DNA from: Pseudomonas sp. GM78
Lineage (GTDB): Bacteria; Pseudomonadota; Gammaproteobacteria; Pseudomonadales; Pseudomonadaceae
Length of the DNA stretch: 64,000 nucleotides
Direction: 5' to 3'
Assembly: GCF_000282475.1 (NCBI RefSeq)
Contig: NZ_AKJF01000103.1
Location: 1 to 64,000, forward strand
Below are positions 534 through 21,945 of this stretch, piece after piece. The first letter of the stretch is position 1, and each line of letters opens with the position of its first letter. The translations under genes and the position numbers were made by a program. Below the pieces are notes generated by a model that did not search any database, had not been told where the DNA came from, and saw nothing but the letters and a program-made list of their open reading frames with translations.

Positions 534-1097
534 ATGCGCCTCACTGAGCAACAGTTACTCATGATTTTCCCCGGCGCTCGCACTCAGGCGGGCGTGTTCA
601 TACTCGCCCTCAATAACGCCATGACGCGTCGTAATATCAGTACCCCCGGGCGCATGGCCGCCTTCCTGGCGCAAATCGGCCACGAGTCGGGGCAGTTGCG
701 ACATGTGCGAGAGTTGGGCAGCGAGAACTATTTCAAGAAGTACGACATCGGGGACCTGGCCATGCGCCTGGGCAATTCCCCTGAGCCCGACGGCGACGGT
801 CAACGCTATCGGGGCCGTGGGCTTATCCAGATTACCGGCCGCAGCAACTATCTGCAGTGTAGTTGGGCTCTTTTTAGTGATGAGCGCTTGCTGCAACAAC
901 CCGAACTGCTGGAGCTGCCACAATGGGCCGCTGAATCCGCGGCCTGGTTCTGGGCGCGAAACGGCCTTAATGAACTGGCCGATGGCGATGAGTTCAACAG
1001 TATTACCCGACGGATCAATGGTGGCTTGAACGGGCTCCAGGATCGTTTGCTGCTTTGGGAGCGGGCAAAGACCGTGTTGTGCCCACCTGCGGTCTGA
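534..1097 (+). CDS. Endolysin, glycoside hydrolase family 19 (chitinase/lysozyme-like)
   Basis: Predicted peptidoglycan hydrolase of 187 residues that releases tailocin or phage particles together with the upstream holin. The family signature is clear: AFLAQIGHESGQLRH near residue 45, with the likely catalytic Glu in HES, then YRGRGLIQITGRSNY near residue 90, and a C-terminal AAWFWARNGLNELAD helix followed by ITRRINGG. A strong AAGGAG lies 7 bases before the ATG. No signal peptide is seen, as expected for a holin-dependent enzyme. No Rz/Rz1-like spanin gene was found between this gene and cinA. The 187 bases between holin and endolysin hold no convincing gene. Confidence 0.85.
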   Translation: MRLTEQQLLMIFPGARTQAGVFILALNNAMTRRNISTPGRMAAFLAQIGHESGQLRHVRELGSENYFKKYDIGDLAMRLGNSPEPDGDGQRYRGRGLIQITGRSNYLQCSWALFSDERLLQQPELLELPQWAAESAAWFWARNGLNELADGDEFNSITRRINGGLNGLQDRLLLWERAKTVLCPPAV

Positions 1098-3399: not shown

Positions 3400-4518
3400 T
3401 CACGTAACCTTTAAGGGTTCTCGCGTTCGCTGCTGCGCCTGTGGCTGGGTGTGTGCCCAGTTTTCCGGCAGGTTGATGTAGTCCACCAACTCGCGCAGGC
3501 GACCGTGGTCACGGGCGGTGAAGTTGAAAGCCAGCCGCGCCAGGTGGCTGAACCGTGCTTCGTCCTGCTCTTCGCCGTTATAGGCGTGTTGATGGAATTG
3601 ATCGCTCAGGCACAGGTCGGCGAATGCCTCCTGCATGTGTTCGAGTGCCAGGTCACTGAGCTTGTGGTTCATGCGAATCACGAACTGGTGCTTGAGCCAG
3701 CGGCTGGAGTGGTAATTGCTGTAGAACTGGTTGATCTGCGCCACGGCTTCCTCGGCGCTGTAGACCAGTTTCACCAGCTTCATGTCAGTGGGCAGGATGT
3801 AGCGATTCTCCTCCAGTTGCTGGTGGATGAAGTCCAGGGCGCCCTGCCAGAACTTGCCACCTGGCGCGTCCAGCAACACCACGGGCACCAACGGGCTTTT
3901 GCCCGTCTGGATCAGCGTCAGTACTTCCAGCGCTTCGTCCAGGGTGCCGAAACCGCCAGGGCACAGCACCAGTGCATCGGCTTCCTTGACGAAGAACAGC
4001 TTGCGCGTGAAGAAAAAATGGAAGGGCAGCAGGTTGGTCGTGCCCTGAACGGTGGGGTTGGCATGTTGCTCGAAGGGCAGGGTGATGTTGAATCCCAGGC
4101 TGTGTTCCAGGCCTGCACCTTCGTGAGCCGCGGCCATGATGCCGCCTCCTGCACCCGTGATGACCATCATGTCCGAGCGCGCCAGGGCGGCGCCGAGCTC
4201 CCGGGCGAGGCCATACAAGGGGTGTTCCACTGGGGTGCGTGCGGAGCCGAAGACTGTGACTTTGCGTCGCCCCTTGAACTGCTCCAGCACACGGAAAGCG
4301 TGCTCGAGTTCGCGCAGGGCTTGGAGGGTTATCTTGGCGTTCCAGCGGTTGTGGTCTTCCTGGGCCATGCGCAGCACGGTCAGGATCATGTCGCGGTAGA
4401 TCGGAATGTTCGGGCTATTGGGTGAAACCAGGTTGAGTTGCTCTTCGACCTTGCTGATGAGGTTGTGGCCGCTTTGTTCAAAATGACGGCTCAGGAGGTC
4501 ATTCGGTTGGTAAGGCAT
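3400..4518 (-). CDS. LOG-family (Lonely Guy/TIGR00730) Rossmann-fold protein
   Basis: Protein of 372 residues with a central LOG/lysine-decarboxylase-like domain. It shows VFGSARTPVEHPLYGLARELG (about 85-105), ITGAGGGIMAAAHEGAG, and the diagnostic PGGFGTLDEALEVLTLIQTGK near residue 205. Family members are nucleoside-5'-monophosphate phosphoribohydrolases; the longer forms (PpnN/YgdH type) act in purine nucleotide homeostasis, and plant and some bacterial members make cytokinins. Helical N- and C-terminal extensions make it longer than the roughly 190-residue core. AAGGAG lies 7 bases before the ATG. Just upstream, at 4536-4658, is an unusual set of inverted repeats that could form a regulatory leader. 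The exact substrate cannot be read from the sequence. Confidence 0.85.
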   Translation of the reverse strand: MPYQPNDLLSRHFEQSGHNLISKVEEQLNLVSPNSPNIPIYRDMILTVLRMAQEDHNRWNAKITLQALRELEHAFRVLEQFKGRRKVTVFGSARTPVEHPLYGLARELGAALARSDMMVITGAGGGIMAAAHEGAGLEHSLGFNITLPFEQHANPTVQGTTNLLPFHFFFTRKLFFVKEADALVLCPGGFGTLDEALEVLTLIQTGKSPLVPVVLLDAPGGKFWQGALDFIHQQLEENRYILPTDMKLVKLVYSAEEAVAQINQFYSNYHSSRWLKHQFVIRMNHKLSDLALEHMQEAFADLCLSDQFHQHAYNGEEQDEARFSHLARLAFNFTARDHGRLRELVDYINLPENWAHTQPQAQQRTREPLKVT

Positions 4519-4535
4519 TCAACTTCTCCTTCTGC

Positions 4536-4658
4536 ACAGAGCCATCGGCTTCGACCATTGAAGCGCCAACGCCACGACACTTCATGTGTCGCTGTCTGCC
4601 CAGGCCCATGCCTGGGCGATTCACTTGACCCTGATCGGGTCATCCATACCGGCTCTGT
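4536..4658 (-). ncRNA. Candidate multibranched structured RNA (leader of the LOG gene or independent RNA)
   Basis: Seen directly: ACAGAGCC at 4536-4543 and GGCTCTGT at 4651-4658 are perfect 8-base complements. Between them lie four successive hairpins: GCTTC/GAAGC (4548-4564, 7-base loop), CGACAC/GTGTCG (4575-4591, 5-base loop), GCCCAGGC/GCCTGGGC (4598-4617, 4-base loop) and TGACCC/GGGTCA (4626-4642, 5-base loop). Read on the minus strand this is a closed five-way junction whose 3' closing strand ends four bases before the AAGGAG of the LOG gene, as in translation-controlling leaders. Read on the plus strand the closing helix is followed by TTTTT, so a small RNA in that direction is also possible. 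I do not recognise it as a known riboswitch; it has no GGA loops, so it is not an Rsm-type RNA. Confidence 0.45.
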
Positions 4659-4995
4659 TTTTCCCTTGGGTGAAAGAAACGTTCGCACAGTGCAAGACGA
4701 AACGGGTGGCTCCTTTCCTGCCCTGAATCTATGAACGTAGATACCTGAAATCTAGACCCTCGCGATGATTCGTGCTGCCTTGATCATTGCGCCGCAAAGT
4801 CTTTCCTGGCAACCGTTTATTGACGATTTGCAAGGTGGTTTCACCGCCCGTCTGAACCCGCCCCGGGTGTTCCGTACTCTGATTTACTAAGTTACAGGTA
4901 CTACACGACAACTTGGCGTCAAGGGCAGGGCGCAGGGTACAAGCGGTAAAGGATTTTTCGCTCAGCACGAGCGAGGTGCAGGGAGCCGGTAAGCC
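4659..4995. other. Intergenic region with no gene recognised
   Basis: These 337 bases separate the structured element and LOG gene (minus strand) from the small plus-strand gene at 4996, so they must hold two divergent promoters. No coding sequence, tRNA or repeat was recognised. An imperfect stem (arms around 4682-4703, CGTTCG against CGAAACG) extends the structured region on the minus strand. No promoter is called with confidence. Confidence 0.5.
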
Positions 4996-5190
4996 ATGGC
5001 CAGGGTCATTCTGGAGATCGATACGCAACTGTATCGATTGCTGAAGTCATCAGCCGAGATCAATCATTTGAGTCTCGAGGAGGAGTGCTGCCGACGTCTT
5101 GAGGACGCGGAGCGGCGCTCACGCTATTTGCAGGCGCTGGTGGCGGAACTGCGCGCCGAGGATGAGCAGCGGCGCGCAGAATCCCACTGA
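4996..5190 (+). CDS. Small ribbon-helix-helix-like protein (PA3612-like)
   Basis: A 64-residue protein with a short hydrophobic strand (ARVILEID), a helix (QLYRLLKSSAEINHL), a turn and a second helix (LEEECCRRLEDAERRSRYLQALVAEL). This order resembles Arc/MetJ-type ribbon-helix-helix DNA-binding or antitoxin proteins, though the strand lacks an obvious DNA-reading pattern and no toxin partner is adjacent. The start is preceded by AGGGAGCC. It converges on the next gene with a single base between the two stop codons. P. aeruginosa has a similar small protein at this place (PA3612 from memory). Function unknown. Confidence 0.65.
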   Translation: MARVILEIDTQLYRLLKSSAEINHLSLEEECCRRLEDAERRSRYLQALVAELRAEDEQRRAESH

Positions 5191-5191
5191 C

Positions 5192-5614
5192 TTACTTTTT
5201 CTTCTGGGTCGCTTTCGGGCAATCCGATTCCTGATAGCTTGCAGAACCGACCGCGCGGTTGGTCTTTACCTCGGTGAAGTCGTAACGCATGACTGCGCCC
5301 TTGGCCATCAGCTTGCGGAAGGACGGGTTGTTGCACACCGAGGCACCAAGCTGGAAATACACAGCCTTGGGGTCGGCACGCATCTTGTTGGCGTGGCTGC
5401 TTTGCACGCTCAGGTGGTTGATCAGCACATTGCCTTCGACCGTGTAGCCCTGATCGAGAATGTCTTCATTGATCGCCCGAGGAGTGCCGACGCTGCTTTG
5501 GGTGGCGACGTTTCGCAGCTCTCTGTTCAGATTCTGCTCACTCAAGGACGCAGCCTGAGCGATGAATGGCGACGCCAGCAGAATGGCAGCGGTGGGAACG
5601 ATAAGGCGCAGCAT
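5192..5614 (-). CDS. Secreted PA3611-like protein (DUF4146 family)
   Basis: A 140-residue exported protein. The signal peptide is clear: MLRLIVPTAAILLASPFIAQA, with cleavage after AQA. The mature part contains two cysteines (VCNNPSFRKLM and ESDCPKA) that could form a disulfide, and a basic C-terminal tail. It matches the Pseudomonas-specific family of PA3611, described as quorum-sensing-regulated and virulence-related and of known structure but unsettled function. The chosen ATG has CCAGGAG upstream; the longer frame back to 5656 lacks a ribosome binding site and would bury the signal peptide. Confidence 0.8.
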   Translation of the reverse strand: MLRLIVPTAAILLASPFIAQAASLSEQNLNRELRNVATQSSVGTPRAINEDILDQGYTVEGNVLINHLSVQSSHANKMRADPKAVYFQLGASVCNNPSFRKLMAKGAVMRYDFTEVKTNRAVGSASYQESDCPKATQKKK

Positions 5615-5803
5615 GAAACTCTCCTGGGGCAGTGATGGGGGTTTGACCCACCACATGACTGTGCGTTCAGTGGCGGCGAATTATAGGGGAGCAGGCCTGG
5701 ACGGTACAGGTTTGCGCCAGAGGGTCTGGTAAACTGCCTGCACTTTCACCCCTTGCCGAGTGCTTTTCGTGTCGATCTCTTTTTCCTGCCGGCGTGGCCT
5801 GCG

Positions 5804-21560: not shown

Positions 21561-21637
<77 letters not shown>

Positions 21638-21868: not shown

Positions 21869-21945
<77 letters not shown>

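Follow-up and report, generated by a model that had tools for sequence, protein, structure and literature searches.

Results

A structured region lies beside the ribosome site of a LOG-family gene

On the minus strand of the 64,000-nt stretch of Pseudomonas DNA analyzed here (the window), a gene of the LOG/TIGR00730 family is preceded by a region whose features are collected in Table 1. The encoded protein scores 32.6 bits with the PpnN model (cut-off 450) and 39.6 bits with the cytokinin LOG equivalog (cut-off 300), and its best match among solved structures is 5wq3, a LOG cytokinin riboside 5'-monophosphate phosphoribohydrolase. Thus, by the PpnN model the window protein is not PpnN, although it is likewise a TIGR00730 protein with the LOG fold; PpnN and LOG are described as related nucleosidases in the available text of one paper (PMC6717881). 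A literature search at the level of listings found neither a role for the LOG-type protein in Pseudomonas nor a leader RNA of LOG/PpnN genes.

Divergent from the LOG gene is a 63-aa frame (4999-5190, plus strand) with no NCBIfam or Pfam match, and beyond it lies a gene with PF13652, a putative quorum-sensing-regulated virulence factor (5195-5656, minus strand). Elsewhere in the window, a frame that we take from its translation to be chitinase- or lysozyme-like (534-1097, plus strand) stands before what are presumably cinA, recA and recX, an arrangement that points to the border of a prophage or tailocin cluster, and two tRNA genes of equal Rfam score (21564-21637 and 21872-21945, minus strand) lie ~300 bases apart.

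Table 1. Features of the LOG gene and its leader in the window, in the order of the minus strand
Feature	Position	Strand	Details and basis
Predicted sigma-70 promoter of leader	4783..4812	-	-35 TTGCCA 4812-4807; 18-bp spacer; -10 AATGAT 4788-4783
P0, upstream hairpin	4704..4723	-	Weak in window; complementary changes by eye in aligned leaders
Pyrimidine-rich tract UUUCUUUCAC	4670..4679	-	Just 5' of the domain; aligned leaders; candidate ribosome landing tract
P1, 5' strand of closing helix	4651..4658	-	Letters, fold, aligned leaders
AUGGAUG at P1/P2 junction, Rsm/CsrA-like	4641..4647	-	Sequence
P2 hairpin	4626..4642	-	Both-side changes in 5/7 pairs
P3 hairpin	4598..4617	-	Both-side changes in 3/8 pairs; missing from some relatives
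P4 hairpin, conserved core	4574..4592	-	7 bp; loop A-N-G-N-N; leader comparison
P5 hairpin	4547..4573	-	Divergent form in window; 7/7 inner-stem pairs change on both sides in A3
P1, 3' strand of closing helix	4536..4543	-	96.8% of P1 cells paired (60 rows)
Shine-Dalgarno site AAGGAG	4526..4531	-	7 nt from start codon in 86/90 measurable leaders
LOG/TIGR00730 gene, 372 aa	3400..4518	-	TIGR00730 100.1 bits (cut-off 96.35); Pfam PF03641

The initial annotation had described five nested perfect helices in this region, and all five are present, both in the letters and in the computed fold. An outer 8-bp closing helix, in which ACAGAGCC (4536-4543) pairs with GGCTCTGT (4651-4658), encloses helices of 5 bp (GCTTC/GAAGC, 4548-4552/4560-4564, loop of 7), 6 bp (CGACAC/GTGTCG, 4575-4580/4586-4591, loop of 5), 8 bp (GCCCAGGC/GCCTGGGC, 4598-4605/4610-4617, loop of 4) and 6 bp (TGACCC/GGGTCA, 4626-4631/4637-4642, loop of 5). 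The 5-bp stem is a species-specific form of the longer hairpin P5 (4547-4573). Exactly as had been described, four bases (GCAG, 4535-4532) separate the closing helix from AAGGAG (4531-4526) on the minus strand; on the plus strand, TTTTT follows the closing helix. None of 200 dinucleotide shuffles of 4526-4668 was as stable on either strand (z = -6.70 for plus, -5.83 for minus). Since both strands fold far better than their shuffles, folding energy alone cannot tell which strand carries the RNA. Farther upstream, the P0 hairpin of relatives is, by eye, of the type GGGCAG-GAAAGGGG-CTGCCC.

Comparison of relatives supports the structure and its minus-strand orientation

We searched the genus with a 301-base query reaching from the LOG gene start through the element; 305 of 398 genomes matched (E <= 0.001), and many of the matches among those listed span just the gene start and ribosome site. 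Leaders were taken from 69 loci, then from 40 more; a third set consisted of 80 named loci together with 15 found in 16 additional genomes. We built alignment A1 on sequence alone, from 60 leaders of the first 69; we left out a duplicate of the window (L001), deletion alleles (L036, L037, L039, L040, L064 and L067) and degenerate leaders (L034 and L038). The core alignment A3 comprises 67 thinned sequences kept from 123 core sequences.

We found that 92.6% of the pair cells in A1 are standard pairs and that 19 of the 41 pairs change on both sides (82 such cells); none of the pairing measures was reached by any of 500 shuffles. When the structure was slid by 1-3 columns, pairing fell to 27-45%, a control that favors the unshifted structure to some degree since the structure was derived from the same sequences. 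At the core (P4-P5 in A3), both-side changes affect 12 of 17 pairs, among them all seven inner pairs of P5, and 0 of 500 shuffles scored as high. At three of the nine P1 positions, 5, 2 and 10 of the 60 rows have a broken pair. Relative to 100 rate-preserving simulations, variable cells were paired more often (65%, compared to 30% on average and 47% at most), and the number of both-side-changed cells lay above the null mean of 45 and below its maximum of 89. When the changes were mapped by parsimony on a tree (averaged over 20 resolutions), 8 pairs accounted for ~9 double compensatory events; among single changes that started from a Watson-Crick pair, ~62 kept pairing and ~59 broke it.

Covariation, which the initial annotation had proposed as a check, gave a divided answer: compensatory changes are present and the aggregate tests are positive, but no single pair was significant in an R-scape-like test (our own re-implementation, with a G statistic, APC, and substitutions reshuffled on the tree). 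In that test none of 12,403 column pairs reached E < 0.05, neither the 41 pairs of the structure nor any pair outside it.

The kinds of mismatch are informative about the strand. Read on the minus strand, the stem cells include 238 G-U and 51 A-C combinations, with 124 otherwise unpaired. Since G-U and A-C would swap on the plus strand, this excess fixes the strand as minus, and it argues against the plus-strand small RNA that had been offered as an alternative. Indeed, on the tree Watson-Crick pairs changed to G-U ~62 times and to A-C ~22 times, while the same kinds of change occurred 106 and 125 times in unpaired columns (odds ratio 3.3, P = 1.2e-5, from rounded means). Similarly, our full-element model (R1) scored the window at 123.4 bits on the minus strand and at 13.3 bits on the plus strand, and RNAalifold gave lower energies for minus than for plus both on a larger alignment of 62 rows (-25.1 vs. 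-8.05 kcal/mol) and, with ribosum scores, on a cropped alignment (-87.2 vs. -73.4). Two groups of four leaders each fold slightly better on the plus strand (-87.8 vs. -85.7; -57.8 vs. -53.1). From these comparisons, we consider it very probable that the element is a real structured RNA leader on the LOG-sense strand.

P4 is the conserved core

P4 is present in 129 of 169 distinct leaders, with the consensus CGACAC-ANGNN-GUGUCG and 99.1% of its cells paired in A3; compensated forms include CGACGC/GCGTCG, CGGCAC/GTGCCG and CGCCAC/GTGGCG. All 67 sequences of A3 have A at the first loop position and G at the third, and positions 2, 4 and 5 are variable. Conserved letters are confined to P4, these two loop letters among them, and the junctions vary across the genus. 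An invariant A and G in the loop of a stem that is itself conserved in its letters suggests that P4 is a recognized hairpin, and a protein would be our first guess for the ligand.

The surroundings of P4 are far from uniform. The P2 and P3 arms vary in size or are lost among relatives, and further groups retain P3-P5, or P4-P5 alone. In 13 putida-like leaders there is another predicted closing helix, CUGC(A) with (U)GCAG abutting AAGGAG, which again encloses hairpins; the fold of this group (-125.4 minus, -116.9 plus) is a prediction that is not aligned to R1.

Convincing matches lie in Pseudomonas and, where checked, in the LOG leader

We searched genomes with R1 and with a model of the core (R2). 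Within the genus, R1 matched 162 and R2 matched 217 of 398 genomes (E <= 0.01). Across the order, R1 matched 5 of 390 genomes (E <= 0.001), all 5 within the genus, and R2 matched 15 of 381, of which 10 were outside the genus and weak (E 1.8e-4 to 0.01). We take these 10 as chance matches rather than homologues; tblastn found LOG at 0 of the 10 loci, and at L248, the one inspected for reading frames, a frame runs across the match. Of the 217 genomes, 33 had two or three R2 matches. We searched 16 of them again and found 35 places, and the best place adjoined LOG in 16 of 16; the 14 inspected of the 19 other places all lay within open frames of 250-1029 codons without LOG and were rejected as second sites, and a second site in a seventeenth genome (L258) was likewise within an open frame without LOG.

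At the LOG gene itself, all 90 sources examined (the window and 89 loci chosen for leader likeness or a model match) had a match on the LOG-sense strand, with 7 extra weak matches, of which 6 fell on the element's opposite strand. Among 95 further loci, the element was found in 48 (47 full and one degenerate, L221), all from named Pseudomonas and including L144 of P. umsongensis DSM 16611, with one additional weak opposite-strand match. Six loci from other genera of the family that carry LOG (L225-L227, L229, L231, L237) had no R1 match, their genomes had no R2 match at E 0.01, and P4 was absent by eye from their LOG leaders. The LOG leaders of three of these (L225, L226 and L227, from another genus of the family) are mutually similar by eye, lack P4, and may have a leader RNA of their own.

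The element is single-copy in its own genome, and a search of plasmids found none. One genome (G201) has three equal-scoring copies on different contigs (C10, C34, C35), by duplication or assembly contamination. Taken together, the searches indicate that convincing matches are confined to the genus Pseudomonas and, where checked, to the leader of the LOG gene.

Natural alleles lack parts of the leader

In leaders of less than 200 nt, the stretch from the -10 box to the Shine-Dalgarno site contains one of several distinct junctions. In one type P1-P5 are missing and the tract is left (L154, P. mandelii OWC5 and others), in a second P5 is retained (L217, L223 and others), a third has a CATGC-AAGGAG junction (L186 and others), and in L064 and L224 the leader is nearly all gone. 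Those deletion alleles that bear the promoter motif retain both the promoter and the Shine-Dalgarno site. Since several clades have lost P1-P3 or the whole domain, the element must be dispensable.

On a tree of 81 LOG genes (48 with the full element, 32 with it lost, 1 partial), the state changes at least 9 times; the well-supported branches force just 2-3 of these changes, and recombination is possible. The differing deletion junctions suggest more than one loss. Deletion alleles in close relatives provide ready pairs, with and without the element, for testing the role of the RNA.

The leader has a predicted promoter and a fixed distance to the ribosome site

A consensus scan of 4400-5000 on both strands found one promoter-like site (9/12; shuffle mean 0.3), the putative leader promoter, with 265 nt from the end of its -10 box to the start codon. 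Transcription is predicted to start near 4776 on the minus strand, for a leader of ~258 nt. Of 189 upstream sequences (near-duplicates kept), 156 contain the promoter motif, 155 of them with a spacer of 18; the absence of the motif from the other 33, including all 13 putida-like leaders, may reflect variants or the 400-450-base length of the upstream sequence. We also noted a block, GGGTCTAGATTCA (4745-4756, minus strand), that is conserved in many leaders ~30 nt downstream of the predicted -10 box and could be a second promoter or a leader element. The scan of 4400-5000 revealed no terminator-like site on either strand, which makes simple intrinsic attenuation unlikely.

In 88 of 90 measurable leaders, P1 and AAGGAG lie 4 nt apart (a further 28 leaders with P4 fell outside the search pattern). 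The predicted probability of P1 exceeds 0.5 in 63 of the 78 full leaders and is 0.5 or less in the other 15. In the same 78 leaders the tract has a mean unpaired probability of 0.38, equal to the leader mean (0.38), and so is predicted to be just partly open, while the Shine-Dalgarno site is predicted unpaired at 0.35 in 100 leaders with P4 and at 0.27 in 34 without it. Thus, predicted folding of P1, the tract and the Shine-Dalgarno site is neutral on mechanism.

Two other roles for the leader were considered and gained no support. In leaders of the fluorescens type, pairing is possible between UUUCUUUC and GAAGGAGA, which would make the tract an anti-Shine-Dalgarno sequence, yet over 73 leaders this pairing was no better than that of dinucleotide-shuffled tracts (mean z -0.32; median of 27 in 100 shuffles as good; 5 or fewer in only 1 of 73). 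A short leader ORF in the window (ATG GAT GAC ... TGA) has a frame that, by eye, is not preserved in relatives.

Discussion

We considered how such a leader might act. Comparison of leaders shows that the structure exists, on which strand and where it lies, and that it is linked to the LOG gene. Of the original claim for a regulatory RNA on the LOG side, the structured leader on the minus strand, beside the ribosome site and placed for control of translation, has stood; its riboswitch reading is not favored. We favor a cis-acting leader RNA of the LOG mRNA, most likely translational, that works through a looped-out domain and a protein that recognizes P4, a reading in which our belief and our doubt are about equal. 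Specifically, from an inferred promoter, transcription starting near 4776 would produce the leader. Once folded, the leader would comprise P0, the pyrimidine-rich tract and a branched domain, in which P1 encloses P2-P5 and which ends just before the Shine-Dalgarno site. The ribosome would land on both the tract and the Shine-Dalgarno site, with the intervening domain looped out, and the putative protein, helped by P5, would block or favor this landing. In a bolder version, which we think unlikely, the leader would represent a new genus-wide class in which P4 is the dedicated site of an RNA-binding protein, possibly the LOG enzyme sensing its nucleotide substrate, in which case a nucleotide-salvage enzyme would set its own translation via the looped-out domain of a split ribosome site.

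This layout resembles that of an E. coli leader, thrS, a gene that is autoregulated by threonyl-tRNA synthetase. As far as the available text of one paper describes it, the thrS leader has a single-stranded tract, then a structured domain that is looped out, then the Shine-Dalgarno site, and the ribosome accommodates the hairpin between its two contact sites (PMC3936740). The LOG deletion allele without P1-P5, in which tract and site are left, resembles the thrS domain-2 deletion, which the same text lists among mutations with at most a 2.5-fold effect (PMC3936740). The two leaders differ in that the LOG leader belongs to another gene, has no known ligand and has a tract predicted to be just partly open; the likeness is one of layout, and no kinship in sequence is expected.

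Since the window has AUGGAUG at the P1/P2 junction, the Rsm proteins are the best named alternative to a dedicated P4-binding protein. On this account, which we find doubtful but worth weighing, the leader would be a Gac/Rsm target in which an RsmA/RsmE dimer bridges the junction AUGGAUG and the GGA of the Shine-Dalgarno site, brought together by P1, and represses translation, a likeness to Rsm/CsrA target leaders of Pseudomonas. In the text available to us, the RsmA motif is CANGGAYG, and the motif from CLIP-seq of E. coli CsrA is AUGGAUG (PMC7705225). The window matches the latter exactly, the junction has GGA in 47 of 60 leaders and ANGGAYG in 25 of 60, and in 9 of the 13 putida-like leaders ATGGA stands, by eye, before the closing helix. 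However, the junction GGA is not universal, being missing in 13 of 60 leaders and absent from some clades, and P4, the most conserved part, mostly lacks a loop GGA (ANGGA in 13 of 129) and would be left unexplained.

The stable fold, and the fact that the domain can be lost while the gene and its ribosome site stay, would also suit a role in mRNA stability or processing, in which P4/P5 and the branched domain guard the 5' end of the mRNA, or form an RNase III/RNase E site, and so set its half-life. We consider this less likely than Rsm binding, since a stabilizing cap needs neither invariant loop letters nor a fixed 4-nt distance to AAGGAG. A metabolite riboswitch that targets the ribosome site, such as one that senses a nucleotide akin to the substrate of LOG, is suggested by a closing helix beside the Shine-Dalgarno site, a multibranch junction and an enzyme gene. 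It is quite improbable, because the junctions are not conserved genus-wide, P2 and P3 vary or are lost, convincing matches come from one genus, and the conserved letters belong to one hairpin.

That P4 might be a DNA palindrome for a transcription factor rather than an RNA hairpin appears very improbable. CGACAC-N5-GTGTCG is a perfect palindrome, and with at most one mismatch allowed the genome has 43 occurrences, compared to 19 for a reversed control, but just one other exact copy exists, with a different loop; moreover, changes in the stem mostly preserve RNA pairing, the neighboring P5 covaries, and P4 lies downstream of the predicted promoter. Finally, a plus-strand small RNA ending in TTTTT is scarcely credible: its stable fold and the T run of the window are outweighed by the model scores and the G-U excess, by the lack of any plus-strand promoter- or terminator-like site in the consensus scan, and by a T run that, by eye, is not preserved in other clades.

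The element matches no family of Rfam 15. Across the whole window, Rfam 15 gave nothing at its gathering score except two tRNAs, which bears out the initial annotation's failure to recognize a known riboswitch, and a permissive scan of 4400-4900 returned RsmV alone, a chance match (9 bits compared to a gathering score of 100). The rmf, gabT, gyrA, Pseudomon-groES and Pseudomon-Rho motifs of Weinberg et al. (2010) are likewise candidate structured leaders of these bacteria that came from comparative genomics (PMC2864571, in the part of the paper available); those of the 2010 motifs that are in Rfam do not match the LOG leader. Motifs of the same study without an Rfam number (fixA, icd, Pseudomon-2, Pseudomon-GGDEF) lay outside the sequence comparison, with Pseudomon-2 marked there as not cis-regulatory, and the main text of the paper, as available, has no mention of LOG, recX or lysine decarboxylase (PMC2864571). 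We found no report of the element in a literature search conducted largely at the level of listings, with few subscription journals and excluding the 2017 Weinberg paper and supplements.

Thus, we conclude that the LOG gene is preceded by a structured leader that is new to Rfam, is so far known from one genus, and most likely acts on translation initiation. It adds a well-delimited leader outside Rfam, before the gene of a LOG-type enzyme, to a widespread and much-used bacterial genus. If P4 does bind a protein, it would reveal either a new RNA-binding regulator or autoregulation by an enzyme.
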